DNA of 56,900 nt. Source: a virus. Position 1 is the first letter of the stretch, and the number at the start of each line of letters is the position of its first letter. Below are positions 18,369-56,900 of this stretch, in pieces. Location of the stretch: the IMG/VR virus record IMGVR_UViG_3300048597_000631, positions 1 to 56,900 of that record; one strand, written 5' to 3'. The notes under the pieces were generated by a model, which was not told where the DNA came from, made no database searches, and saw nothing but the letters and a program-made list of their open reading frames with translations. Made by a program: the position numbers and the translations under genes.

Positions 18369-21128
18369 TTAGGTGACGGCGACGAACGAACCTTTGCCAG
18401 CCACCGGAGACTCCATCGCGTTGTATTCCTCGATGTACCACTGCGTGGCCGCGATCAGCTTAGCGGTTGCCTGGTCATACTTCGGGAATGGACCTTGCAG
18501 CGACAAAGGCTTGTAGACGCGGAAAGCGACCAGCTCGCGGTTGACCACCATCATGATGTTGTCCGACAGTGCTGTGCTCGGCGCGGCGTAGATCGGCAGG
18601 CCCTTGAGCGTGCGGAAGAAGCCGTTGCTCTGCGCCTCGGCGTCGGGCCGGCTGCCGCTCTCCGTGAAGCCGCTCCAATTCGCGAGCAGGTCGGCGTTCG
18701 CCACCGACACAACGATGGACGTGGGCGAATAGTTGCGGTTGAGCACCTTCACCTTGGCCTTGCCCAGCTTCAGAATGGCATCGGCATAGTCCGGCGATCC
18801 CGCGCTGCCGTTCCATGTGCCGCCGCTGTTGTTCGCCACCGTGCGCAGCGTCGCGGCGGCCATGCTGAAGATGTCCTGGTCGACCTTGCGTGTCTGCTCG
18901 GTGATCAGGTTGCCCAGCGTGCGCTGCACCACGTCATAGTTCAGCTGCGAGCGCGAGAATTCGACCGCCTCGTTCGTGATGTCGATGCTCATGCGGTCGG
19001 CCTTCGCCGTGATGGTCACGTTCGACAGCGTGGTCTTGGCGCGCTCGATCGGCGCGTTCTCGCCTTTGCGAATCGCCTCATACACGTAGTCGATCAAGAG
19101 CGACTGACCGGCGGTGATCGCGCCGCCGGTGGGCACGAAGATGCGGCCGTTGCCATAGTCCACGAAGTAATCCGTGTTCTCGACATAGGTCGTCGAGCCG
19201 GCGCTATTGGTCAGCACCACCGTGCCCTGCTTCACGCGCTGGTTGGCGAGCGATCTCCATTGCGCCAGCGGGTTAGGCGCCGTGACGGCTTCATCCGTGA
19301 TCGTCACCGACATGCCCGATTCTTCGGTGTAGGTCTCGAAATACAGCAGGTCAGGCGAATTCTGCATCGGTGCCACATCGAAGATGCTCGTGGCCACCAA
19401 CTGCGGCCACACGGCCGCCACCACTGCGCGCGAGACGCTGTAGGGCAGCGACAGGTCGGTGCTGAGCTGCGCTTCGTTGAAACGCTGCGCCTCGGCGGCG
19501 AGCTTGTCCTTGAACTGCTCGTCGAAGCGCTTCAGGATTTGCGCCGCGACGATCTGGTTGCGGTTCTTCGGCTTGGCCTCGTTCCAGATCGGCGCGTATT
19601 CCCGCGCGCGCAGACCTTCGAGCAGCTCGTGCGACACGCGGCCATACTCCGGCACGCCGGCGTCGCGCTCGAGCACAGTGCCCAGCACCTGGACGCCGGC
19701 GGCGCCGCCTGCAGCAGACATGCCCATGCCGGCAAGTCGCGCGCTGGCCACCATCGCGTCGTAGCGCTTCTGCAAACGCTCGAAGGCGGCCTGCACGCCG
19801 GCGGCATCCGTCACCGCCTCGGCCAGCTCGTCGGCGAATTGCTTGTTCAGCGATTCACCATACGGCAGCTTCTCGCACGCCTTCTTCACAGCTTCGGCGA
19901 TGGCGGCCTTGCGCGCCTGCTCGTCGAGCGTGCGCTTGGCATCCATCGCCTCAGCGATGGTTTTGAACACGTCGGCGTTCGGCGCGAGGTTCAGCTTCTC
20001 GCGCAGCAAGCCCTCGATCTGTTTGGCCTGCGCCTCGGTCAGCTTGTCGAGCGCCTCGATCCCCAATGCGGCCTTCACCTGCGCCGCCAGTTCGGGATTT
20101 TGCTGGAGCATCTCCAGCAGCTTCTTCGGGTCCATGTTGTCCTCCTGATCAAATTCGTTTTTGTCGTTCTTGCTTTCGAGAACGGTGTGGTTGAGGAAGC
20201 CGGGCGTCATCACCAGGTCATAGCCGGTGAAGTGCAGCTCGGTCACCTCCTCGATCTCTCCATCGTTCTCGGTCAACGTTCGCGCGAAGCCATAGCCTCG
20301 CAGGCTGCCGCCGGGCATGACGCCGAACTCCATCAGGGTGAGTGCGTCCTTGCCTTTGCTGGTCGGGATGACGGTGCCAATGAAATCCACCGCGCCCGTG
20401 CCCTCGTCAAACGTGACTTCCGTCCAGTTGACGATGGTTTCCAGATAAAGGGGACGCTGCCCTTTGTCGCTCGGATGATCTGCCTCGCCGACCAATTGGT
20501 CGCCGTCCTTCGTGAGAAGAATGGCACGCCCCTGGCCCGCGCTCTCGTGCAAATGCTGTCTGATCTCGGTCACCGCACCGCGCACCACCTCGCGCGGGTA
20601 GCGTCGGCGGTTGCGGTTCACCGCGTCGGCCATCACCGCCTCGCGCACGCGGATGCGCCGGCCTTCGCCTTGCGCCGTCTTCACGGCCTCGCCCAGGTCG
20701 GCCTTGATCACATCGACCTGCTCGGTGAAGCGCGCTTTGCGCCCCTTGGCCCGTTCCGTCACAACGGTGGGCGCCGGCGTCGTTTGCGGAATCTTGGCCG
20801 GCGCAGCGGGCTGATAGGCCAGCTCGACGACTTCCCACTGATCCTGCGCATCGAACGCGAACTCAATGCCGGCGCCGGTCTCGGCAACCGAGTAGCCCAC
20901 GCGGTAATACTCGCCATCCTGAAGCGCGCTGCCGATGCTTTCGCTGGTGCGCGTGTATACAGAAACGATCAGGTGATCGGAGAAGATCTCGCGCACCACG
21001 TAGATCGGGCCGCGCTCAGCATCGGGGAACGCGCTGTAGAACGCGTTGCGCAGGCGCTGGAGATAGTCATCCAGCGACCCTTTCACTTCTGTGATCGCCT
21101 GGCCGCGGTTGAGTTTGCGTTTGCTCAT
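18369..21128 (-). CDS. Fused prohead protease, scaffold and major capsid protein
   Basis: 919 aa in one frame. Residues about 150-330 match the T4 gp21-type prohead protease: ADAVNRNRRRYP, then VGEADHPSD with the catalytic His, and PGGSLRGYG with the likely catalytic Ser. Residues about 332-480 are a Lys/Glu/Ala/Gln helical scaffold. The last ~400 residues have the character of an HK97-like major capsid protein. A second start inside the gene (ATG 20135) has a perfect AGGAGG. ATG 21128 is preferred as first start because the ATG at 21170 lies in a hairpin. The protease would cut the scaffold and free the capsid subunit. Confidence 0.85.
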   Translation of the reverse strand: MSKRKLNRGQAITEVKGSLDDYLQRLRNAFYSAFPDAERGPIYVVREIFSDHLIVSVYTRTSESIGSALQDGEYYRVGYSVAETGAGIEFAFDAQDQWEVVELAYQPAAPAKIPQTTPAPTVVTERAKGRKARFTEQVDVIKADLGEAVKTAQGEGRRIRVREAVMADAVNRNRRRYPREVVRGAVTEIRQHLHESAGQGRAILLTKDGDQLVGEADHPSDKGQRPLYLETIVNWTEVTFDEGTGAVDFIGTVIPTSKGKDALTLMEFGVMPGGSLRGYGFARTLTENDGEIEEVTELHFTGYDLVMTPGFLNHTVLESKNDKNEFDQEDNMDPKKLLEMLQQNPELAAQVKAALGIEALDKLTEAQAKQIEGLLREKLNLAPNADVFKTIAEAMDAKRTLDEQARKAAIAEAVKKACEKLPYGESLNKQFADELAEAVTDAAGVQAAFERLQKRYDAMVASARLAGMGMSAAGGAAGVQVLGTVLERDAGVPEYGRVSHELLEGLRAREYAPIWNEAKPKNRNQIVAAQILKRFDEQFKDKLAAEAQRFNEAQLSTDLSLPYSVSRAVVAAVWPQLVATSIFDVAPMQNSPDLLYFETYTEESGMSVTITDEAVTAPNPLAQWRSLANQRVKQGTVVLTNSAGSTTYVENTDYFVDYGNGRIFVPTGGAITAGQSLLIDYVYEAIRKGENAPIERAKTTLSNVTITAKADRMSIDITNEAVEFSRSQLNYDVVQRTLGNLITEQTRKVDQDIFSMAAATLRTVANNSGGTWNGSAGSPDYADAILKLGKAKVKVLNRNYSPTSIVVSVANADLLANWSGFTESGSRPDAEAQSNGFFRTLKGLPIYAAPSTALSDNIMMVVNRELVAFRVYKPLSLQGPFPKYDQATAKLIAATQWYIEEYNAMESPVAGKGSFVAVT
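20133..20146 (-). promoter_or_regulatory. Internal ribosome-binding site and ATG inside the capsid fusion gene
   Basis: On the leftward strand AGGAGG (20146-20141) is followed by ACAAC and ATG (20135-20133), in frame with the fusion gene. It would give a separate 588-aa scaffold-capsid protein lacking the protease, beginning MDPKKLLEML. It is the strongest such site in the gene. Confidence 0.75.
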
Positions 21129-21159
21129 GTGTGATGCTGTCAATTGGCCGGAAAAGCAA

Positions 21160-21191
21160 AGCGGCGGCATTTCAAATGAAATGCCGCCGCT
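21160..21191 (-). repeat. Palindromic hairpin element, copy B
   Basis: 15-bp arms 21160-21174 and 21177-21191. The loop-proximal sequence is ATTTCA-AA-TGAAAT, where copy A has ATTTCC/GGAAAT, so paired bases changed together. On the leftward strand it is followed by TTTGCTTTTCC and sits about 30 bases before the capsid-fusion start. Confidence 0.85.
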
Positions 21192-37442: not shown

Positions 37443-37472
37443 AAAAGAAAACCCCGCCAGTGCCGGCGGGGT
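37443..37472 (-). terminator. Terminator after the ATPase-nuclease gene
   Basis: ACCCCGCC (37451-37458) and GGCGGGGT (37465-37472), and on the leftward strand TTTTCTTTT follows. It ends the ATPase-nuclease transcript 30 bases after its stop and separates it from the surface-protein pair. Confidence 0.9.
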
Positions 37473-37501
37473 AAACATTGCCTTGCGAATCTGCTGTGTC
37501 T

Positions 37502-39454
37502 CTACGCTGGATCAGTAACCGTCACGGGTTCAACGTGGATGCTTGTGTCTGCGAATACATCCTTGTTCAACTTCTGAATCTTATCTTTTAGCCTGAATGT
37601 GCGAGCATGTGCACGGCGGATGATGACTTCATACGGCGCCGCGAAGATGGTTGTGTTGCCTTCTTGTATTACGTCGCGCGCATTGGACTTAACCTCACAA
37701 CCAAGCACGTAACAGACGATCTTTGTATATTCCTGTATCTTGCCACTCTCTCGAAGAATTGACGCATAGTTGGCCGCCTGCATCCGTTCTTCTCGTCCAA
37801 TTTTGAATCCGCCACGCTTAAGTTCAAGGATAAATATGTGATCAAACCCAACAACTTCAGGATCGACACTTTGATCAAGAGATCCAAAACGCTCGCTGGC
37901 ATAGAAACCCAAAGAGCCATCTGGAAGCGCTACAAAATCCGCCCGCTTGCGTGGGTCACTGAGCTTTGCCTTATCATCGCCCAGAAGATCGCGCACCACT
38001 GTCGCGAGTGTTCGGTTGGATTGGAAGTGCACTGACTCATATTCTGGGCCAAATATCCATAGCCCATTTTCAAACAGCGGGTGAATTTCATGCAGCTCAT
38101 CAGTCGTTGGATTGCCCACGCGTTCCTCAAGTGCTTCAATCAACTTCAGCCGCCGATCCAATTCATCTAAAACGAGATACGCCTCTCTCACAGACCACTT
38201 CTCAAGCAGTGTATGCAGCTGATCCAGTTCGCTTGAAGATAGATGCGCAAGCTGTCTAAGCAAATCGGTTCCAGACCGAGAACGCTCCATCTGTGTAAGG
38301 ACGGTCAGCATGTAATCCAAATCCTTATTCGATAGCGTAGGGCGTTCCCGCTGCGCGATGTCGATAAACTCATTGATGAAATAACGAGATCCGTTGGACA
38401 ACTCTCGCAACTCTCTGCCGTGGTTGCTCAAAGCCTTCTTTTTTTGTGCCAACAATTCCGCGCTGAATAGACGTTGGATTTCACGGTTAATGTAGTCACG
38501 AACTTCGATGCGCACCTTCTCCACTGCAGGGGAATCTTTGAATCCTGTCCAGTCCGTTTCTACGTGGTCTTCCAGCACATCGGCTTTCACAATGAAGCTA
38601 TAACTTCGCGCTTCAGCCAACCGGCGATCAATGGCCATCTGTTGTTCATCGCCATGCTTCCATGATGGCGTGTCGATCAGTTTTTTGTTCACCCACCACG
38701 CAATCCCATGCTGGGTGCTTGCCCGACCAACCACGGGGCTTTGCACACGAAAGACAATAACGTCGCCAACATCTTTCACATGCAATGTCTTGCTATGTCC
38801 TGTATTTAGATCGGTGAAATCAATGGGTTGATCGTTGACCATGATTTTGAATGCAGGATCCAATGCGAATTTTGTGCTCAGCAGCTTGCTTACATCGCTG
38901 ACCGACAATGCTCCGCGCACAAGCCTGCAAGACAAAATCGTACCATGGCCATCCCTTGGCGCAAGCTTCTCGCGGGTAACTTGAACTGGCAACTTTGCCA
39001 TTCCTTTTACCCACCGCACATGCCATCGCGAACATTCACCGTTCTTCCACGTTTCGACTGTGTATAAGTCAGCAAAGCAGAACATGCTGTGTCTGCCCTT
39101 GCCGTTGCGTCCGTGGGCCTTTCGGGGTGATGTTGCGTTGCCTGCTGGGAAAATCACTTCCCGCCCCTGCTTTGATACACGGCTGTAATTCCATGTCATC
39201 CAGCGATCTTGGAATTCAGCGATGGTCATTCCCGTGCCATCATCCTCAATCACAATTTCTTCATCTGGCGCTGCGTCCATCGACTTTTCAATTTTTGGCC
39301 ATGTGATCTTCACAACATTCGCGCCAGCATCCCATGCATTGGAGATCACTTCGACGAGTGCGATTTGTGAATCTTTGAGTAAACGCCCAGCATGGTCGAT
39401 GAGAAATTCAGACCCATACGTAAATGCTATTGATGATTTAGGTGTTTTGGGCAT
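37502..39454 (-). CDS. GHKL (HSP90/MORC-type) ATPase fused to PD-(D/E)XK-like nuclease
   Basis: 650 aa from ATG 39454. The GHKL ATP-binding fold is complete: N box EVISNAWDAG (35-44), G1 box IEDDGTGM (69-76), and lid/G2 GRNGKGRHS (115-123). A S5-like transducer and helical linker follow (about 150-420). The C-terminal ~180 residues carry RKRADF near 507 and FILELKRGG with E544-x-K546, a PD-(D/E)XK/Shedu-like nuclease core. GHKL-nuclease proteins occur in restriction and defence loci. The gene lacks GCCGGC and is less GC-rich than its neighbours, so it was probably acquired. As a lysogen-expressed moron it may protect the host from other phages. Confidence 0.8.
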   Translation of the reverse strand: MPKTPKSSIAFTYGSEFLIDHAGRLLKDSQIALVEVISNAWDAGANVVKITWPKIEKSMDAAPDEEIVIEDDGTGMTIAEFQDRWMTWNYSRVSKQGREVIFPAGNATSPRKAHGRNGKGRHSMFCFADLYTVETWKNGECSRWHVRWVKGMAKLPVQVTREKLAPRDGHGTILSCRLVRGALSVSDVSKLLSTKFALDPAFKIMVNDQPIDFTDLNTGHSKTLHVKDVGDVIVFRVQSPVVGRASTQHGIAWWVNKKLIDTPSWKHGDEQQMAIDRRLAEARSYSFIVKADVLEDHVETDWTGFKDSPAVEKVRIEVRDYINREIQRLFSAELLAQKKKALSNHGRELRELSNGSRYFINEFIDIAQRERPTLSNKDLDYMLTVLTQMERSRSGTDLLRQLAHLSSSELDQLHTLLEKWSVREAYLVLDELDRRLKLIEALEERVGNPTTDELHEIHPLFENGLWIFGPEYESVHFQSNRTLATVVRDLLGDDKAKLSDPRKRADFVALPDGSLGFYASERFGSLDQSVDPEVVGFDHIFILELKRGGFKIGREERMQAANYASILRESGKIQEYTKIVCYVLGCEVKSNARDVIQEGNTTIFAAPYEVIIRRAHARTFRLKDKIQKLNKDVFADTSIHVEPVTVTDPA

Positions 39455-39486
39455 GAGCAATTAAGGCTTTTGTTAGTAATAAGTGG

Positions 39487-39861
39487 TTACCGCCCAATCC
39501 AGCACCGCACGCCGCCATGCCGGCTGCACGCGCCGCTGCCCGTCGCGCTCGACGAGGTGCCGTCATTGCAAATCGCCCCCACCCTCGTCGTGCCGGTGCT
39601 GTTTGGGCACCACGGCGCGCCGGTGGGCGGATTCGGCGGTTGCGGGTTTGCCGTGGGCAGGACCGTCGGCGCCGGCGCTGTTGTCGGCACCAGCGTCGGC
39701 ACAGGTGCAGCCGTCGGCGCCGGCGCTGTTGCCGCAGCCGGCTTTTGCACGATCGGCAAATACGACACCGGCACAACGCCCTCGGCGCTCGCCGGCAGAA
39801 TCGCCACGGCAACGAAGCACACACACGCGATGATGAGCGCAATGACACTGCGCTGTTTCAT
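39487..39861 (-). CDS. Secreted DUF3761-like protein with Ala/Pro/Thr stalk
   Basis: 124 aa. Residues 1-26 are a signal peptide (VIALIIACVCFVAVAILPASA). A repetitive Pro/Ala/Thr/Val stalk covers about 40-85. The C-terminus has CNDGTSSSATGSGACSRHGGV, which matches the short Cys-rich DUF3761 domain (C-N-D-G ... C-S-x-H-G-G-V). It sits between the repressor and the ATPase-nuclease, so it is likely expressed in the lysogen. It may be displayed outside the cell; function unknown. Confidence 0.7.
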   Translation of the reverse strand: MKQRSVIALIIACVCFVAVAILPASAEGVVPVSYLPIVQKPAAATAPAPTAAPVPTLVPTTAPAPTVLPTANPQPPNPPTGAPWCPNSTGTTRVGAICNDGTSSSATGSGACSRHGGVRCWIGR

Positions 39862-39880: not shown

Positions 39881-39997
39881 TTAGTCCACGAATACCCACA
39901 GCCGGCCGTCATCGCCGATCTGCCACGTGCCGCGCTGAAGCTGGCGCTCGATCTTGACCACTTCAATGACGAGCGGGAGCACGCCCGCCCTTCGCAC
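39881..39997 (-). CDS. Possible small protein after the repressor
   Basis: 38 codons from GTG 39997, overlapping the repressor stop by 35 bases. The part after the overlap (KIERQLQRGTWQIGDDGRLWVF) looks protein-like, but the frame has no clear ribosome-binding site. A longer start at 40048 or 40144 would run inside the repressor. Low confidence. Confidence 0.3.
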   Translation of the reverse strand: MRRAGVLPLVIEVVKIERQLQRGTWQIGDDGRLWVFVD

Positions 39998-40385
39998 CCT
40001 GTTTGCCAGCACCCGCGCTTGTATTCTTTTTGCCCCGCTGCGCGACATGTCGAATAAGGGTTGCCACCAGCGAGAATGTCTGCTTTCGCTCTTCCGGATC
40101 GTCGATGTCATTGAGCAGCCCTGAAAGAACCTGTGCTTCCTCATCGTCCATCACCTGCTTTTCTGGAAGAATCCCGAACTCTCTATATACGACCTCAGTA
40201 GGCATCCCCAGACCGGACGCTATTCCAGTTGCAAGTTTTTTCCCAACGTTTCGTTTACCTGAATAGACGTTGGTCAATGCAGCAGGATTGAAATTGCCGC
40301 GTCGGGCCAACTCCGCGCGATCAATGCCTTGCGCTCGCAATTGTTCATTCAACCACGCGAGTCCTTCGTCAGTCGTTTTGTTCAC
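39963..40385 (-). CDS. XRE-family repressor (CI-like)
   Basis: 140 aa from GTG 40385. Residues about 10-70 form an XRE/Cro-type HTH (LNEQLRAQGIDRAELARRGN, then NVYSGKRNVGKKLATGIASGLG). There is no cleavable peptidase domain, so it would not be RecA-inactivated by the lambda mechanism. The C-terminus is basic. It faces the rightward early operon across 166 bases with several operator-like repeats, the classical place for a lysogeny repressor. Confidence 0.85.
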   Translation of the reverse strand: MNKTTDEGLAWLNEQLRAQGIDRAELARRGNFNPAALTNVYSGKRNVGKKLATGIASGLGMPTEVVYREFGILPEKQVMDDEEAQVLSGLLNDIDDPEERKQTFSLVATLIRHVAQRGKKNTSAGAGKQGAKGGRAPARH

Positions 40386-40414
40386 AGGAATACAGTTTAA
40401 AACTCATTACTTTT

Positions 40415-40430
40415 GTGACCACAAAGTCAC
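40415..40430. promoter_or_regulatory. Operator GTGAC-N6-GTCAC
   Basis: A 16-base palindrome (GTGAC 40415-40419, CACAAA, GTCAC 40426-40430) placed two bases before the -35 of the rightward early promoter and about 30 bases before the repressor start. It matches the operator at 36165-36180 in arms and spacing. Confidence 0.75.
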
Positions 40431-40432
40431 TA

Positions 40433-40461
40433 TTGACAAAACGTCAGACATTTGCTAAAGT
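40433..40461 (+). promoter_or_regulatory. Rightward early promoter
   Basis: TTGACA (40433-40438), 17-base spacer, TAAAGT (40456-40461). GTCAGAC (40443-40449) just after the -35 parallels GTCCGAC in the 36 kb promoter. It would drive the long early operon up to the recombinases and be shut by the repressor. Confidence 0.75.
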
Positions 40462-40462
40462 C

Positions 40463-40480
40463 ACTTTTGTATCCAAAAGT
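40463..40480. promoter_or_regulatory. Inverted repeat just downstream of the early -10
   Basis: ACTTTTG (40463-40469) and CAAAAGT (40474-40480) flank TATC, right at the expected transcription start. Half-sites of the form AGTCACT/AGTTCACT surround it. Probably a further repressor or regulator site. Confidence 0.6.
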
Positions 40481-40551
40481 TCACTATTGATTAGTCTCCT
40501 TTTAGGCTTAGGACACCTGAAAACGAGGCAAAGGACAAAGGTCACGGGCAT

Positions 40552-43947: not shown

Positions 43948-44213
43948 CACAGGCTGCTGCATGGCGATCCATCCCCCGCGCGCAGGCGCCGGCACGCCGG
44001 CCAGGCGGCCCGAAGAGCAAATACATCGCGCCGATCAACGCCGCGCTGCGATCCACCGACCACGTGATCGAGATCGACTGCGCCGGCAAACAAGCGCGCA
44101 CCGTCTACGCCGCCGTGAAGACCGCCGCAAAGCGCATGGGCGCGGCCCAGCGCGTCAGCGCGTGGATCCTCGACGGCAAGGTCTACGTGGCACAGAAGGA
44201 GTCAGGACAATGA
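43944..44213 (+). CDS. Hypothetical basic 89-aa protein
   Basis: GTG 43944 overlaps the previous stop as GTGA with GAGGTG upstream. The product has a basic, Pro/Ala/Arg-rich N-terminus and a compact alpha/beta C-terminal part (AAVKTAAKRMGAAQRVSAWILDG). No family recognised. Coupled to the ParB-like gene by ATGA, so it may work with segregation or be a small DNA-binding protein. Confidence 0.6.
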   Translation: MTQAAAWRSIPRAQAPARRPGGPKSKYIAPINAALRSTDHVIEIDCAGKQARTVYAAVKTAAKRMGAAQRVSAWILDGKVYVAQKESGQ

Positions 44214-45187
44214 CCGACCATCTCATCTTCCTCAACCACACCCAGCTCGCGCGGCACACGCACAACATGCGCCGCGCATATCCCGCCACGGCCGTGCGCA
44301 AGATGGGCGCAAGCCAGCTCGACCGCGCGCGCGAAGGCAAGCCGTGCTGCCTGCAGCCGCTGGTGGTCACCGCCGGCGCCGGCATTGAATATGACCCGCA
44401 GCAGCACACCGCCTTCACCATCGTCGCTGGCCACCTGCGCCACGCCGGCAATGCCTGGCTTGGCGAGAAAGCGCCGCCGCTGCCGTGCATCGTTCGCTAC
44501 TATGCCACCGAGGCCGACATGCTCGCCGACATGGGCACCGAGAACGGCGTGCGCGAGGATGTGGGCGTGATCGGCTGGGCGCAATACCTCAAAGGCCAGA
44601 TCGCCGCCGGCGTGCCGATGCATCAGTTGTTGCGCCGCACGGGTCTGCCGCTGTCGCGCGTCGAGCGCCTGCTCGATGTGGCTGAGATGCCCGGCCTCGT
44701 GCAGGGCGTCTTCGACCGCGGCGAATTGCCGCTGCTAGCCGTCGTGCCGCTGAAGTGGATCACCGATCGCGCCCAGCTGATCGAGCTGGCCGTCAAGCTG
44801 GGTGAGAAGCGCGCCACGCTGTCGCAGGTCGAGATGGCCGTGAAGGCCCTGCGCACCGGCACGCCGACCGAGCGCAAATATCAGCGCAAGGTGCACGCTG
44901 TGCGGGCAGAGATTCCCGCGCTCGATGGCGTGCCAGCCGCGTTGCCGGCCACCCTGGGTGATGTGCGGCGTGGCGCGGCAAAGGCCTGCGCTGCGTGCGA
45001 AATCGGGCGCGACCTGCCGCTCGACGAGCCGGCCTGGCGCATCGCCGTGGAAGCAGCGTCGAACACGTGCAAGGCCTGCGACCTGAAGGCTTTCGAGCAG
45101 GTGTGCAAAGCCTGCCCGCTGGCCGAGGCCATGCGCAACGTGGTCAAGGCCATCAAAGCCGAGGTGAAAGCCGAGGTGCCGGCGTGA
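44210..45187 (+). CDS. ParB-like protein with Cys-rich C-terminus
   Basis: 325 aa from ATG 44210. A ParB/Srx-like N-terminal domain is visible: LQPLVV (about 45-50), FTIVAGHLRHAG (68-79, in place of the usual I-V-x-G-x-R-R), and ENGVRED (about 110). The HTH region follows (LLRRTGLPLSRVERLLDVAEM, about 143-163). The C-terminus has three C-x-x-C motifs (259-305), perhaps a zinc-binding dimer domain, which is unusual for ParB. It would bind a centromere and, with the ParM/ParR-like genes 3 kb downstream, segregate DNA, or act as a ParB-type regulator or nuclease. Confidence 0.7.
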   Translation: MTDHLIFLNHTQLARHTHNMRRAYPATAVRKMGASQLDRAREGKPCCLQPLVVTAGAGIEYDPQQHTAFTIVAGHLRHAGNAWLGEKAPPLPCIVRYYATEADMLADMGTENGVREDVGVIGWAQYLKGQIAAGVPMHQLLRRTGLPLSRVERLLDVAEMPGLVQGVFDRGELPLLAVVPLKWITDRAQLIELAVKLGEKRATLSQVEMAVKALRTGTPTERKYQRKVHAVRAEIPALDGVPAALPATLGDVRRGAAKACAACEIGRDLPLDEPAWRIAVEAASNTCKACDLKAFEQVCKACPLAEAMRNVVKAIKAEVKAEVPA

Positions 45188-46383
45188 CCATCGACACGCT
45201 GCTCACCCGCGTCGCCTGGGCAACCGACAAGAGCCGCCGGCGCGCCGCGGCACGCCGCTGGACGAAGGCCGAGATCGTGCGGCTGCATGACCTGGTCGGC
45301 AAGCGCAATGTCACGGCCATCGCCCGCGAGCTGGGCCGCTCGCGCAACGCCGTCGCGTCGAAGCTGATGCAGCTCGGCTACCGCATCAAGCGCGACGTGC
45401 AGCAGCCGGTCGGCCTCAACGCCCGCGAGCTGAGCGCGCTGATCGACGTGCCCTACGAGCAGGTTGTGCGCGACATCAACGCCGGCGTGATCAAAGGCGC
45501 GTTCCGTGAAAGCAAGAAGGACTTCATGGTGCCGTGGCGCAGTGTGCGGTCATATGAGAATCGCATGCAGCGCATCCGCACCCGCCGCGAAAAGGCCATT
45601 GCGCGCATCAAGGAAGAGACGATCACCAAGCAGGAGGCCATGCAGATCCTCGGCCTGAGCGAGACGCACCTCACACGCTACCTGCAGGGCAAGATTGTCA
45701 AAGCGTGGAAGATCCCGACGATCTTCACCACCGTCACCAAGTGGCGATGGGAATGGCTGGTGTCGAAGCGCGACGCCGAGCGTGTGCGCGACCTGCGCGC
45801 TGCCGGCAAGCTCCACGTGCGCATGCGCAAAAAGGCATATCGCAAGATCGCCGACGCGGCAAACCAGACGGTGCTGCAGATGCGCCGCGAGCAGCGCGCT
45901 GGACAGCGATCTGCCAAAACACTCAAGGCATTCGGGCCGCGCAATGCCGTGGTGCCAGGTCACTACACCATCGCCCAGGTTGCGCAGATCGTCGGCATCT
46001 CGACGCAGCAGGTTTACGAGCACAGCCGCAACGGCCGGCTGCAGTCCGCAAGCGTGCGCGTGGGCCGGCGCGCCTTCCGCACGATCACACCCGAGGCGCT
46101 CGAAGCCTACAAGGCCTGGCACGCGCGCCCGGTCAAGGCGACCGGCCCGATGGAGGCATGGCGCACAGGCCGCAACGCCGTGCACAAGGCCGGCCTGCTC
46201 ACCACGCGCGAGTCGGCTGATCGCTACGGCCTGGTCTTCGGCTCGCTGGTGTGCGCTGCGCGCGATGGACGAGTGAAGCATCGCAAGATCAAAAACCTCT
46301 TGGCTTTCAAGCCTGAGGATGTTGAAGCATACGCAGCCGGCATGCGCCGGCGCAAGGGAAAGAGTTTGAAGGAGGAAGCATGA
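45184..46383 (+). CDS. Protein with tandem HTH domains
   Basis: 399 aa from GTG 45184 (GTGA overlap). It starts with a SANT/Myb-like HTH (RRWTKAEIVRLHDLVGKRN, about 20-65) and then has at least four MerR/excisionase-type HTH units: near 80-120 (LNARELSALIDVPYEQ), 145-185 (ITKQEAMQILGLSETHL), 260-310 (YTIAQVAQIVGISTQQVYE) and 330-385 (LTTRESADRYGLV). Few phage proteins have so many DNA-binding units. It lies between ParB-like and ParM-like genes, so it could organise a centromere or origin. Confidence 0.75.
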   Translation: MTIDTLLTRVAWATDKSRRRAAARRWTKAEIVRLHDLVGKRNVTAIARELGRSRNAVASKLMQLGYRIKRDVQQPVGLNARELSALIDVPYEQVVRDINAGVIKGAFRESKKDFMVPWRSVRSYENRMQRIRTRREKAIARIKEETITKQEAMQILGLSETHLTRYLQGKIVKAWKIPTIFTTVTKWRWEWLVSKRDAERVRDLRAAGKLHVRMRKKAYRKIADAANQTVLQMRREQRAGQRSAKTLKAFGPRNAVVPGHYTIAQVAQIVGISTQQVYEHSRNGRLQSASVRVGRRAFRTITPEALEAYKAWHARPVKATGPMEAWRTGRNAVHKAGLLTTRESADRYGLVFGSLVCAARDGRVKHRKIKNLLAFKPEDVEAYAAGMRRRKGKSLKEEA

Positions 46384-47363
46384 ACGTCATTGGTCTGGAT
46401 CTGGGCATGGGCGCCACGAAATTGTGGAGCGCAAACGGCGGCAAGGTCATCCTGTCGCAGGTCGCCATGCCGACCCGCGAGGACATCGACCTGAAGGCGC
46501 TCGGCATGAGCGCGAAGCGCAAGCCTGTCGTCATCCTGAACGGCATGGGCCGGCTGCTGGTGGGCGAAGGCGCCCACGACGCCGGCACGCCGATCGAGCG
46601 GCTCGATTACGAGCGCCTCACCGGCTCACCTGAAATGAAGGCGCTGGTCTACGCCGCGCTGGCCACCCAGGACACGAGCGAGACGGACCCCATCGCCTTG
46701 ATGGTCGGCCTGCCGCTGGGCCTGGCCGCCGGCGACGAGTCCAAGCGCCGCATCGATGCCGTGAAGACCTGGCTGACCGGCGCGCACGTGTGGAAGGCCG
46801 ACCGGCGCGAGCACGTGGCCGTCGTCGACCGCGTCGGCTGTGTGTCGCAGGCGCACGCTGCATATCTCGACTGGCTGCTGAACGACGATGGCAAGCCCAT
46901 GGGCCGGCCCGTGAAGGGCAGAGAGATCGCGGTGATATCCGTCGGCTTCAACACCATCGAGATGGTCGTCCTGCGCGACAACCAGGCCATCAGTCGCTTC
47001 GTCGCCGGCGAGAAGCTGGGCGTACGGCGCTTTCTCGAGCTGGTGAACGAAGGCCGGCGCGGGTTGTTCTCCCTGGGTGAGCTCGACATCAAGCTGCGCG
47101 CCGGCGGGCTCGACGAGCCGGTGGCGCAATCGAAATGGAGCGCCCAGGTGCACGGCCACATCGAGCGCACCTGGTCGGATGCCGCTGGCCGTTTCGATCA
47201 GGTCATCGCCGTCGGCGGCGGTTCGCTGCTCCTGCATGACGCGCTCGTCGATCTGTTCGGCGGCCGGCTGATCGAGAGTGACGAGCCGGTGCTCAGCGTC
47301 GCGCGCGGCCTTTACAAGTTTGGGCTGATGCAAAAACTGAACGTGAAGGAGGCGGTGAAGTAA
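46380..47363 (+). CDS. ParM-like actin homologue
   Basis: 327 aa with AAGGAGG before ATG 46380. Actin-fold landmarks are present: phosphate-1 GLDLGMGATK (5-14), phosphate-2 VISVGFNTIEM near 184-194, adenosine motif IAVGGGSLL near 276-284. This is the ParM/Alp class of plasmid-segregation actins, which polymerise with ATP to push plasmid copies apart. Overlaps the tandem-HTH gene by ATGA and is followed by a ParR-like adaptor in TAATG coupling, so a complete type II partition pair is likely. Confidence 0.85.
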   Translation: MNVIGLDLGMGATKLWSANGGKVILSQVAMPTREDIDLKALGMSAKRKPVVILNGMGRLLVGEGAHDAGTPIERLDYERLTGSPEMKALVYAALATQDTSETDPIALMVGLPLGLAAGDESKRRIDAVKTWLTGAHVWKADRREHVAVVDRVGCVSQAHAAYLDWLLNDDGKPMGRPVKGREIAVISVGFNTIEMVVLRDNQAISRFVAGEKLGVRRFLELVNEGRRGLFSLGELDIKLRAGGLDEPVAQSKWSAQVHGHIERTWSDAAGRFDQVIAVGGGSLLLHDALVDLFGGRLIESDEPVLSVARGLYKFGLMQKLNVKEAVK

Positions 47364-52664: not shown

Positions 52665-53300
52665 ATGTTGACAGTCGAACAAGCATTCGGCCAAGATGCG
52701 ATCTGGTGCCAACAGCAATGGATCGCGCATCACTATCTTCACTCGAAGATTGATCCACGATGCCGGCCCATCGCCTATATCGTCAAAGTCAATGGTGAGC
52801 GGCGCGGCGCGCTGGGCTTTGGCCGGCCAGAGTCCACCCGCTGCAATGGCTGGTATGGCGGTGTTGATGACGTGAAGGCCGGACGCGCCCGCCTCACGCG
52901 CTGGGAGATCATCAACCTCGCGCGCGTGTGGCTTGACCCGCGCATCCAGCCAGGCGGCGAGGAAGAGATTCACAACGCGGCCACGCAGGCAATCGGGCAG
53001 GCGCTGAAGCGTGTCGTGGTGGATTACCTCATCACGCACCCGCCGTGCTTCCTCGACGAGCCGTATGCGCTGCGTGAGTGCATCAGCTACTGCGACAGCA
53101 CGACGCATCGCGGCATTTTGTATCGGGCTGCCAACTTCCGGCTGATGCGCACCAACGAGCGTGGGCTGCAAACCTACATGCGCCCGCTGCGCGGGCTGCA
53201 GCCGCATGAGCACGCGGCCATTCGGCGCGCGTCGGAGTATGACGAGCGCGCCCGGCGATTCAGGGCACGCCAAATGCAGCCTGCATTGCTGGCTGTCTAG
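52665..53300 (+). CDS. Mom-like GNAT-fold protein (possible DNA modification)
   Basis: 211 aa. The features IAHHYLHSKIDPRC near 20-33, GALGFGRPES and the C-terminal ISYCDSTTHRGILYRAANFR are the pattern I associate with the Mom-type GNAT fold of phage Mu relatives, which install an unusual carbamoyl-type modification on adenines. An Arg/Trp-rich middle could hold the base. If active, it would protect phage DNA from restriction. Ribosome-binding site is GGGGTAGGGC. Moderate confidence for the family, low for activity. Confidence 0.65.
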   Translation: MLTVEQAFGQDAIWCQQQWIAHHYLHSKIDPRCRPIAYIVKVNGERRGALGFGRPESTRCNGWYGGVDDVKAGRARLTRWEIINLARVWLDPRIQPGGEEEIHNAATQAIGQALKRVVVDYLITHPPCFLDEPYALRECISYCDSTTHRGILYRAANFRLMRTNERGLQTYMRPLRGLQPHEHAAIRRASEYDERARRFRARQMQPALLAV

Positions 53301-53374
53301 ATTTGCTTAATTTAAGTCCAGTTAAAGGAAGCAATGAGCCTTACATTGTGATTGACGCAGTAAGGAAGTGTTCC

Positions 53375-53872
53375 ATGGAAGAAATCCAGTTTGATTACAA
53401 AGGCAAGACGCATGCCGTCGCAGTTGATGACGATGCACTAGAGACATTGAACAAGCATCAATGGTATGGGTTCGAATCGCCTGGTGGCTATCTTTATTGC
53501 GCACGATTCTCGGGCGACTTTTCCAATCCTGTTTGGTTTTTGCATTGGGACATTATGGGCAAGCCTGCGAAGGGGTATCACGTTGACCATAGAGACGGCA
53601 ACACACTAAATTGTCAGCGCGTCAACATGAGGATATGCACTCATCGCGAGAACCTGACAAACAGGAAGCGGCACAAAAACAACACGTCGGGATACAAGGG
53701 CGTAACACGCAACAAGGGCAAGTGGGGTGCACAGATAAAGTCCAACTATAAGTTGATTTGGTTGGGAACATTTGACGATCCAGTGTCTGCTGCATTGGCC
53801 TATGACAGAGCTGCACGTGAAATCTTTGGAGAGTTTGCGAATCTCAACTTTCCAGACGCGTCAAAGTCGTGA
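53375..53872 (+). CDS. HNH-AP2 homing endonuclease
   Basis: 165 aa. The start ATG 53375 leaves out a 24-codon extension. HNH motif: YHVDHRDGNTLNC with RENLTNR (about 70-110). An AP2 domain follows (SGYKGVTRNKGKWGAQI, LGTFDDPVSAALAYDRAA, about 108-160), giving DNA recognition. It is less GC-rich than the rest and lacks GCCGGC, so it invaded recently. It lies between the Mom-like gene and the integrase without disrupting either. Free-standing homing endonucleases of this kind spread between phages. Confidence 0.88.
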   Translation: MEEIQFDYKGKTHAVAVDDDALETLNKHQWYGFESPGGYLYCARFSGDFSNPVWFLHWDIMGKPAKGYHVDHRDGNTLNCQRVNMRICTHRENLTNRKRHKNNTSGYKGVTRNKGKWGAQIKSNYKLIWLGTFDDPVSAALAYDRAAREIFGEFANLNFPDASKS

Positions 53873-54861
53873 TCGTAAATTCAAGTTTGAGAATGGAGAA
53901 ATCACCGATTGTTCAGAACCCCGCCGGCGCACCGGACACGACCACCGTGTCTGACTCAACGGCGCGTTATATCCGCGCCTCGCGTGCCTACAACACCCGC
54001 CGCGCTTACCAGTCCGATCTGCGCGACTTTCGCGAATGGTGTGAGGACAACAACCGTGCGCACTTCCCAGCGGTGCCAAAGACGGTTGCTGATTACCTTG
54101 CATACCTGGCTGATCAAGGCATGAAGGTCTCGACGATCGAGCGGCGCAACGTGGCCATCAGCGAGGCGCACAAGTCTGCCGGCGTGCCGAACCCGACCGC
54201 GACAGAGATCGTGCGCAAAGCCATGAGCGGCATTCGACGAGAACACGGCGCGCCCAGGCGCAAGGTGCGCGCCGTGACCGTGCGCGAGCTGCGCGCAATG
54301 TGTGAGGCCATGCCTGACACGCTCGCCGGCTATCGAGATCGCGCGATCCTTTGTGTGCAGTTCGCCGGCGCCATGCGCAGGTCTGAGCTGTCGAGCCTGA
54401 TCGTCGAGGATGTGGAGTGGGGTGTGGATGAGGTAGCGCTGACCATTCGACGCTCGAAGACCGACCAGGCCGGCGAGGGCATGCGCAAAGTGCTGCCGGC
54501 CTCAAGCGATCCAGCTATCTGCCCTGTGCGGCTGCTCAGGCGATGGCTGACCACCGCCGGTATTGACGACGGCGCGGTGTTTCGTGGGGTCGATCAGCAC
54601 GGCCACGTGGGCGCCGGCGCGCTGACGCCTGGCAACATCGCGCTGGTCTGGAAGCGCGCAGCCGAGCGGGTGGGGATTGCAGCAGATCGGGTGAGTGGCC
54701 ACAGCGCGCGGCGCGGCTTCATCACAGAAGCATTCAAGGCTGAGGTGGCCGAGGCGGACATTCAACAGGTCACTGGACACAAGTCCATCGCCGTCTTGCG
54801 CGACTACCGCGCCGATGCCGGCCAGGCACAGCGCAAGGCCGTGAACAAAGTGATGGGATAA
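53869..54861 (+). CDS. int: Tyrosine recombinase / integrase
   Basis: 330 aa from GTG 53869 (overlap with HNH stop); ATG 53893 gives eight residues less and is equally possible. Core-binding SAM-like domain about 30-115. Catalytic residues visible: R170 (GAMRRSEL), K197 (SKTDQ), H278-x-x-R281 (HSARR), H304 (TGHKS) and nucleophile Y313. It could integrate the phage at an attachment site or resolve dimers of a circular replicon. Confidence 0.92.
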   Translation: MIVNSSLRMEKSPIVQNPAGAPDTTTVSDSTARYIRASRAYNTRRAYQSDLRDFREWCEDNNRAHFPAVPKTVADYLAYLADQGMKVSTIERRNVAISEAHKSAGVPNPTATEIVRKAMSGIRREHGAPRRKVRAVTVRELRAMCEAMPDTLAGYRDRAILCVQFAGAMRRSELSSLIVEDVEWGVDEVALTIRRSKTDQAGEGMRKVLPASSDPAICPVRLLRRWLTTAGIDDGAVFRGVDQHGHVGAGALTPGNIALVWKRAAERVGIAADRVSGHSARRGFITEAFKAEVAEADIQQVTGHKSIAVLRDYRADAGQAQRKAVNKVMG

Positions 54862-55171: not shown

Positions 55172-55359
55172 CCGACAAGCGCAAACTCCCCCACCCTCGC
55201 CGGCCTGGCCGGCCCAAGCGCGCACCGAATGTTGCGCGGCTGCCAGTCGTCGCGCGCAAGCGCCTCGACACGTATCCACCGCGCGTGCAGCGCCTCCTGC
55301 GCGCCATCGCCGCCGCTGAAGCCCAGCGCCAGCCAGCACCACAGCCTGAGCCGGCATGA
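55168..55359 (+). CDS. Small basic protein
   Basis: 63 aa, ATGA coupled on both sides. Very Arg/Pro-rich (PRRPGRPKRAP, AT-hook-like GRPKR) with a C-terminal Ala/Gln/Pro tail. Likely DNA-binding; it may assist the serine recombinase whose start it overlaps. Family not recognised. Confidence 0.6.
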   Translation: MTDKRKLPHPRRPGRPKRAPNVARLPVVARKRLDTYPPRVQRLLRAIAAAEAQRQPAPQPEPA

Positions 55360-56900
55360 CACGCATCGCCTTGTATCTTCGCTACTCTAGCGAGGAGCAG
55401 TCCGAGGGCTGGAGCTTGGAAGCGCAGGAGCGCGGCTGCCGGTCGTTCGTCGATGGCAAGGCCGGCTGGGCCATCACCGCGATTTACACCGACGAGGCGC
55501 GCAGCGGCAAGAGCACCGACCGTCCCGGCTTTCAGGATATGCTCAAAGCCGCGCACGCCGGCGCGTTCGATGTGCTGGTGTGCCACAAGCTCGACCGCTT
55601 CTCGCGCAACCTGGTCGACGTGCTGCTCACGCTCGACGATCTGCAGCGGCATGACGTGACCTTTGCCAGCGCCACTGAGCCAATTGACTTCACCACGCCG
55701 CTGGGCAAGGTCGTGCTCATCATTCTGGCGTTCTTCGCCGAGTGGTATCTGCAAAACCTCAGTGCCGAGACGACGAAGGGCAAGCGTGAGCGATTCCAGG
55801 CCGGCCTGTGGAATGGCGACCTGCGCTATGGCTACACCCGCGGGGACGACGGCAAGCCCCAACTCGCAGACGAATCGCGCCACGTGCTCACGGCCTACCA
55901 GCTTTGCGCCGCCGGCAAGAGCGACCAGCAGGTCGCAGACGCCATCAACGCCGCCGGCGCCCGCACGCTGCGACTGCGCACGAACAGCAAAAAGAAGGCG
56001 ACGGTCGACACGCCGATCGACGAGCGCCGGCCATGGACGAAAGACAGCGTTGGCGCGCTCTTCACGCCGGAGGCCGCCGCGTTCTACAGCGGCCACACCA
56101 CCTACATCGGCGAGGGCGAGCGCAAAAAGCGCAAGCGCGACCGGCGCATGGAGATCATCCACGACACCCACCCAGTCGTCATTGATGACGAGCTGGCGCG
56201 CAGCGCGCTGGCCGCCCGCGTCAAGCGGCGCAACCCGGGCCGGCTGGCCACCACCCCCCTGAAGCACGACTACATTTTCGGCGAGCGCGTGGCCGTGTGT
56301 AGCGTTTGCGGCAAGCCCATGCGCGCCTGGCACAGCACGACGAGCAAGCGCGCCTACTATCGCTGTGCAGCTGCCCAGCGCGGCGAAACCTGCGCGGCGC
56401 CGGCGCGCCCTGTGGCCGAGGACGTGCTTGTCGAAGCGATGCACGATTACATCGCCGACCTGGAATTGCCTGACGACTGGCGCGAGGCTGTGCGCGAGGT
56501 CAACGCGCTGGATGATGCGCGCCTGCAGGCGATGGAGGCGCGTGAGAAGCTGGCCGGTCAGCTCAGGCGCATCAACTACCAGATCAACGCCGGCATGGTG
56601 CTCGACGATGACCTGCCCAGCATGGAGCGCCGCGCGCGGGCGCTGAAGGAGCAGATTGAAAACATGGTGATCCCGGCGCCGGCGAAGACCGTGGAGAGCG
56701 GGGAGCGCATGGTGCGCCTGCGCCAGATCTGGCCGACGGCCAGCAAATACATTCGCCGCGAGATCGTGCAGGCCATCTGCGCGGCGGTGGTGGTGGACAC
56801 CGAGCGCCGGCGGATTGCTGGTATCAAGCCGCATCCGGAGTTCGTGCTACTATTCGAGTGCACGCGGCTTGAACGCGACGGCGACCTGTGGCGCATATGA
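55356..56900 (+). CDS. Large serine recombinase
   Basis: 514 aa, complete to the TGA at the end of the window. The N-terminal resolvase domain has YLRYSSEEQ with catalytic S11, and KLDRFSRN near 77-84. A recombinase domain (about 160-300), a zinc ribbon (CSVCGKPM ... YYRCAAAQRGETC, about 312-350) and a coiled coil (about 390-440) follow, as in phage integrases such as phiC31. It can drive integration and, with a directionality factor, excision. Together with the tyrosine integrase the element has two independent systems. Confidence 0.93.
   Translation: MTRIALYLRYSSEEQSEGWSLEAQERGCRSFVDGKAGWAITAIYTDEARSGKSTDRPGFQDMLKAAHAGAFDVLVCHKLDRFSRNLVDVLLTLDDLQRHDVTFASATEPIDFTTPLGKVVLIILAFFAEWYLQNLSAETTKGKRERFQAGLWNGDLRYGYTRGDDGKPQLADESRHVLTAYQLCAAGKSDQQVADAINAAGARTLRLRTNSKKKATVDTPIDERRPWTKDSVGALFTPEAAAFYSGHTTYIGEGERKKRKRDRRMEIIHDTHPVVIDDELARSALAARVKRRNPGRLATTPLKHDYIFGERVAVCSVCGKPMRAWHSTTSKRAYYRCAAAQRGETCAAPARPVAEDVLVEAMHDYIADLELPDDWREAVREVNALDDARLQAMEAREKLAGQLRRINYQINAGMVLDDDLPSMERRARALKEQIENMVIPAPAKTVESGERMVRLRQIWPTASKYIRREIVQAICAAVVVDTERRRIAGIKPHPEFVLLFECTRLERDGDLWRI

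Follow-up and report, generated by a model that had tools for sequence, protein, structure and literature searches.

A predicted GHKL ATPase–Shedu-type nuclease fusion encoded beside the lysogeny genes of a probable temperate phage

What could be the role of a single phage gene that joins an ATPase to a nuclease and is located beside the lysogeny genes? This question is raised by IMG/VR virus record IMGVR_UViG_3300048597_000631, of which the whole 56.9-kb stretch (positions 1 to 56,900; hereafter the window) was analysed. The window contains terminase, head, tape-measure and integrase genes, and the record probably represents a temperate phage that carries the GHKL-nuclease gene as repressor-side cargo. 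A previous sequence-only reading had described this gene as a complete GHKL fold joined in one frame to a nuclease core, equipped with its own terminator, inserted into a lysogeny block, in need of no second gene and possibly of an undescribed architecture. As detailed below, this description was borne out except for the last point. The features of the locus are listed in Table 1.

Table 1. Coordinates of the GHKL-nuclease gene, its predicted domains and the adjacent features in the window.
Feature	Position	Strand	Details
GHKL-ATPase/Shedu-type nuclease fusion gene	37502..39454	-	650 aa; ATG 39454, stop 37502-37504
GHKL ATP-binding domain	38810..39454	-	~residues 1-215, approximate limits; Pfam, conservation, Foldseek
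S5-fold/transducer-like domain	38540..38809	-	~residues 216-305; Foldseek alignments, secondary structure
Helical linker	38117..38539	-	~residues 306-446; AlphaFold2 helices 309-344, 354-393, 397-446
Shedu-type (PD-(D/E)XK) nuclease domain	37559..38116	-	~residues 447-632; hhalign, conservation, domain model
Intrinsic terminator 3' of the GHKL-nuclease gene	37451..37472	-	9-bp stem ACCCCGCCGGC-ACTG-GCGGGGT then TTTCTTTT
Small secreted-type ORF	39487..39861	-	signal peptide, Pro/Ala-rich, weak DUF3761; between repressor-type and GHKL-nuclease genes
HTH repressor-type gene	39963..40385	-	phrog_769 transcriptional repressor E 9e-5; HTH_3 under Pfam cut-off
Two operator-like 28-bp direct repeats	40409-40436, 40463-40490	.	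82% identical; repressor-type gene on one side, rightward genes on the other

The open reading frame, which has an in-frame TTG 6 bases 5' of its ATG, is predicted to encode a GHKL-S5 ATPase fused to a Shedu-type PD-(D/E)XK nuclease, as a stand-alone gene. The single frame is kept end to end in 17 other full-length homologues, which are 30-39% identical to the window protein and together with it make up our full-length alignment of 18 proteins. The ATPase part matches Pfam HATPase_c_3 with an E-value of 3.5e-17 (63.1 bits at a gathering score of 25), and the remainder of the protein matches no curated Pfam family. The N box (E35/N39), G1 (D71-x-G73-x-G75) and G2 (G115-x-x-G118-x-G120) are all present, and E35, N39, D71, G73, G75, G115, G118 and G120 are unchanged in all 28 aligned rows. 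A full-length AlphaFold2 model was built with the 28-row alignment as input (mean pLDDT 78.3, pTM 0.55). Foldseek matched this model in the PDB to the ATPase cassettes of Hsp90/TRAP1 and MORC3/MORC4 over ~400 columns with E ~1e-13, and we read these matches of the predicted structure as GHKL plus S5. Altogether, the E-x-x-x-N of the N box, the D-x-G-x-G motif, the G2 glycines and the fold match place the protein in the GHKL superfamily. A sequence search of the PDB matched the ATPase part to Hsp90 only, with E 0.006 or worse, and gave no match for the nuclease part. The best match in PHROGs was phrog_6203 (644 positions, function unassigned there), over residues 19-218. PADLOC labels the protein REase_II, a label that is based on the ATPase part only.

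The nuclease residues of the C-terminal part are E453, R504-x-D506, E544-x-K546 and Q559xxxY563. R504, D506, K546 and Y563 are unchanged in 28 of 28 rows; position 544 is E or D, E453 is replaced by Q in one of the 28 rows, and Q559 by R in two divergent rows. Comparison of profiles with Shedu had been proposed as a check of this domain, and it gave a clear result. The C-terminal profile of the clade to which the window protein belongs was aligned by hhalign with a Shedu SduA_C set, consisting of the annotated Shedu neighbour of the relative L036 (PF14082 E 3.4e-20) and PF14082 matches from Chloroflexota genomes. The match had Prob 97.0, E 1.1e-10 and a score of 75 over 159 columns, against 20.9 for the best of 40 column shuffles. 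Against C5 methyltransferases the same profile gave Prob 0.3, and for NucS_C, represented by a small set chosen through Pfam, Prob was 6.8. E453, D506, E544-x-K546 and Q559 superpose on the Shedu residues in this alignment, and the last strand-helix aligns with the FDELLxRA segment of Shedu. These profile alignments indicate that the C-terminal domain is homologous to the Shedu nuclease core, with matching catalytic residues. When the 18-protein full-length alignment was compared with one lone Shedu sequence and no Shedu profile, Prob was 2.1, and Pfam SduA_C/DUF4263 (PF14082) has no match at E<1 in the window protein or in the 18 members of the full-length alignment. A stand-alone GHKL protein of Agrobacterium (L084), which matches residues 23-585 of the window protein end to end (E 2.7e-18), clears the Pfam SduA_C cut-off with 28.2 against 27 bits, and its active-site letters are identical to those of the window protein. 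Structure prediction, also proposed as a check, had a mixed outcome: the domain modelled alone is confident (pLDDT 84.9, pTM 0.81), but none of its Foldseek matches reached E<0.001, and the top 50 contained no Shedu entry. The best sensible matches were to EndoMS/NucS, with E-values of 0.026 and 0.095; this weak hint of NucS kinship is unsupported by the profiles.

These two halves make the window protein comparable to systems that have been described before. Iyer, Abhiman and Aravind defined paraMORC3 in 2008 by a GHKL + S5 layout with a C-terminal E-D-ExK domain (PMC2292703), and the window protein displays each of these features of membership. Indeed, hhalign matched it end to end with ParaMORC3 of PhiR44_1 (E 3.2e-37, 567 columns). 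The same authors inferred restriction-modification (R-M) functions for paraMORC3, mentioned a stand-alone subset and left roles outside R-M possible for those stand-alone proteins (PMC2292703). VcSduA of V. cholerae, which was classed as Shedu type I-D, restricts Drexlerviridae phages and requires both ATPase residue E27 and nuclease residue K557 (PMC12137116, 2025). Compared by description, it is likewise one stand-alone protein on mobile DNA that combines a GHKL ATPase with a Shedu-type nuclease, and its catalytic residues are equivalent (N-box Glu, ExK Lys). The suggestion of an undescribed architecture was therefore dropped, since paraMORC3 (PMC2292703) and VcSduA (PMC12137116) already show the same layout. 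Certain differences are nonetheless apparent. VcSduA has a recognisable DUF4263, whereas the Shedu-type domain of the window clade is detected only by profile-profile comparison. Shedu SduA (PF14082; PDB 8ti8/8ti9) shares the ordered E-D-ExK-Q residues and a C-terminal YDxLLxRA-like segment, but its N-terminal domains are other regulatory ones and include no GHKL ATPase. In contrast to other paraMORC3 proteins, the window protein belongs to a clade almost without methyltransferase neighbours, and its carrier is a temperate phage, probably of Chloroflexota. Because it has the features of paraMORC3 and homology to the Shedu core but fails the curated DUF4263 threshold, we speak of a paraMORC3-family nuclease of GHKL-Shedu type and not of a certified SduA.

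Relatives were gathered from genomes, virus contigs and plasmids. In a tree of 58 rows, a branch with 100/100 support sets apart the 31 clade members, the window protein among them, and the closest relative is the Anaerolineae protein L005 (98/95; 47% identity). The clade is distributed over Chloroflexota, Planctomycetota, Acidobacteriota, Bacteroidota, Pseudomonadota, a methanogen and phages; strong matches occur in 2 of 400 Chloroflexota genomes, so that the distribution is patchy. The loci were scanned with a C5-methyltransferase profile made from four annotated neighbours, some of the flanks being short; the systematic scan was confined to C5 enzymes. A C5 methyltransferase was found nearby in only one of the 31 clade members compared to 30 of the 34 other GHKL-nuclease rows, where it is mostly adjacent and sometimes within about 1 kb. 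The profile scan found none in the window, and a C5 R-M partner in the window is thereby ruled out. New here is the placement of the window protein in a fully supported, nearly methyltransferase-free clade. In Mucilaginibacter L026 (6744-9599), a member of this clade, the gene immediately 5' encodes a C5 methyltransferase, and a conversion between the stand-alone and the R-M form may have taken place here.

The neighbours of the clade members include several defence genes: a type IIG R-M enzyme (L008), a UG21 defence reverse transcriptase (L014), a Shedu (L036), a HepT-like ribonuclease (L037), MmeI and Cas9 (L038), an annotated restriction endonuclease with AbiEii (L039) and AbiEii again (L040). 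Any enrichment of defence genes around the clade counts as an impression and not as a measured value. In a Pfam analysis of 130 neighbours at 16 host loci, phage integrase was the commonest family (5), followed by MmeI methyltransferase and YhcG nuclease with two occurrences each. No conserved partner gene was found among these neighbours, no family occurring more than 5 times, which agrees with the view that no second gene is needed. At L005 (3211-8009), drmD, which encodes the DISARM SNF2 helicase, lies directly upstream, and the GHKL-nuclease gene overlaps its end by 7 bases, which suggests a helicase/GHKL-nuclease operon.

The position of the gene in the phage is in line with the proposed insertion into a lysogeny block. 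The HTH gene, which from its sequence is a probable lysogeny repressor, lies two genes 5' on the same strand, and the operator-like repeats sit in its divergent promoter region. The small ORF at 39487-39861 belongs to the context of the gene and is not claimed as a functional partner. Phage L047, as read from ORF sequences, has a repressor/Cro-like pair, and its copy of the GHKL-nuclease gene lies on the repressor side. Three neighbour genes were used to look for sister phages in which this site is empty, but no relative suited to the comparison was found. On virus contig L042 (4671-10055), the GHKL-nuclease gene follows directly after tape-measure-like and tail-type genes, outside any lysogeny block. 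As judged solely from the nearest relatives of the GHKL-nuclease gene, the host of the phage probably belongs to the Chloroflexota.

The gene has a GC content of 49% compared to 62% for the window, which marks its composition as foreign. It contains no GCCGGC, while the window contains 344 copies, and the longest GCCGGC-free gap of the window (37462-39519, 2057 bp) spans the gene, the second longest being 1101 bp. The absence of this motif had been noted correctly and taken as a sign of insertion. From the dinucleotides of the gene only 0.44 copies are expected, and the gap thus reflects the lower-GC foreign composition, which does speak for an insertion, and is not a separate signal. For the same reason, avoidance of GCCGGC was ruled out as evidence of specificity. 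Over the window, no other 6-bp palindrome is as over-represented as GCCGGC, of which 57 (dinucleotides) or 96 (trinucleotides) copies are expected, and it resembles a highly iterated palindrome. GACGTC has 0 copies in the whole window where 16.7 are expected.

We consider it likely that the window protein is an ATP-gated single-protein DNA nuclease from a methyltransferase-free paraMORC3/GHKL-Shedu branch, used for superinfection defence. As such, it would most likely be a stand-alone defence that shields the lysogen from other phages, a function carried over to it from VcSduA. We infer expression, a dimer clamp, DNA as the target, the trigger and the function in defence along the following lines. 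The lysogen would express the GHKL-nuclease from the operon on the repressor side, where temperate phages carry cargo. When another phage infects, the GHKL dimer would bind ATP and close around DNA, as in MutL, MORC and Hsp90, and the closed clamp would license the Shedu domain, whereby the incoming phage DNA would be cut. Such a superinfection defence would also be to the benefit of the host.

An unlikely alternative, and the foremost of those considered, is that the gene encodes the restriction component of an R-M system of type II and of the BbrUII/HgiDII kind, which would cut at a fixed site, with protection provided by a methyltransferase encoded elsewhere or by a phage modification enzyme. 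Indeed, the NCBIfam model for BbrUII/HgiDII (NF050001) matches the ATPase part with an E-value of 3.5e-26, those enzymes share the N-terminal GHKL ATPase and a similar overall length (659 compared to 650 residues), and most of the other relatives do have C5 methyltransferases nearby, for example ParaMORC3 of Escherichia phage PhiR44_1 beside Dcm. Yet the match reaches only 91.9 bits of the 550 demanded by the cut-off, and the curated R-M enzymes differ from the window clade, which, apart from one of its 31 members, lacks the adjacent C5 methyltransferase and is separated from the methyltransferase-linked rows with full support. The window does contain a gene for a weakly Mom-like protein (52665-53297), but this gene lies on the opposite strand at a distance of 13 kb, and its match covers ~50 residues.

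The idea that the protein is a lone component of a larger R-M-like or DISARM-like complex, in which an SNF2 helicase would act together with the GHKL-nuclease, appears improbable to us. It draws on the closest relative, whose gene begins inside the last codons of drmD, and on the operons joining helicase and GHKL that were described by Iyer et al. (PMC2292703). Against this, no helicase gene is recurrent among the 130 neighbours at the host loci, where the only family found as many as five times is that of the integrases. Moreover, the window gene ends at a terminator of its own, and the ORFs scanned included no SNF2 helicase. We judge it similarly doubtful that the protein serves phage or host DNA metabolism, namely repair, recombination or chromosome structure in the manner of MutL or MORC, instead of defence. 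The ATPase is kin to both of these proteins and the nuclease model is weakly like NucS/EndoMS, but a patchy occurrence, a foreign composition, several defence neighbours and the plasmid, phage and integrase contexts of the relatives argue against such a function.

With regard to the preferred reading of a stand-alone defence nuclease, the methyltransferase-free clade may tentatively be regarded as a distinct GHKL-Shedu subtype, in which the ATPase clamp alone would discriminate self from non-self and which would provide temperate phages with a single-gene superinfection defence. If this is true, the clade would be the evolutionary counterpart of the GHKL type II R-M enzymes, with a shared scaffold and no methylation. 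With the window protein, the range of the GHKL-Shedu defence nucleases extends to a phage that probably infects Chloroflexota, and a whole clade of GHKL-Shedu nucleases escapes the Pfam DUF4263 model. The split between methyltransferase-linked and methyltransferase-free members also leads to a testable question, namely how the second group spares its own host without methylation.

Lastly, several other features of the phage deserve mention. Behind the weak Mom-like DNA modification match at 52665-53297 on the plus strand (E 1e-8) comes a gene for an HNH endonuclease (53303-53872). An integrase matching phrog_1/phrog_216 is encoded at 53869-54861 (+), and the neighbouring stretch at 55356-56900 (+) encodes a serine-type integrase (phrog_95, DNA invertase). 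A ParB-like ORF at 43961-45187 (+) and a partition-protein-like ORF at 46380-47363 (+) occur in addition to the recombinases that the phage encodes, a combination that could reflect a phage-plasmid or switchable lifestyle. In the 933-aa ORF at 18369-21170 on the minus strand, 179-407 match a head maturation protease, 621-701 an Ig-like tail domain and 700-862 a major head protein, so that this ORF is an apparent protease-Ig-capsid fusion.
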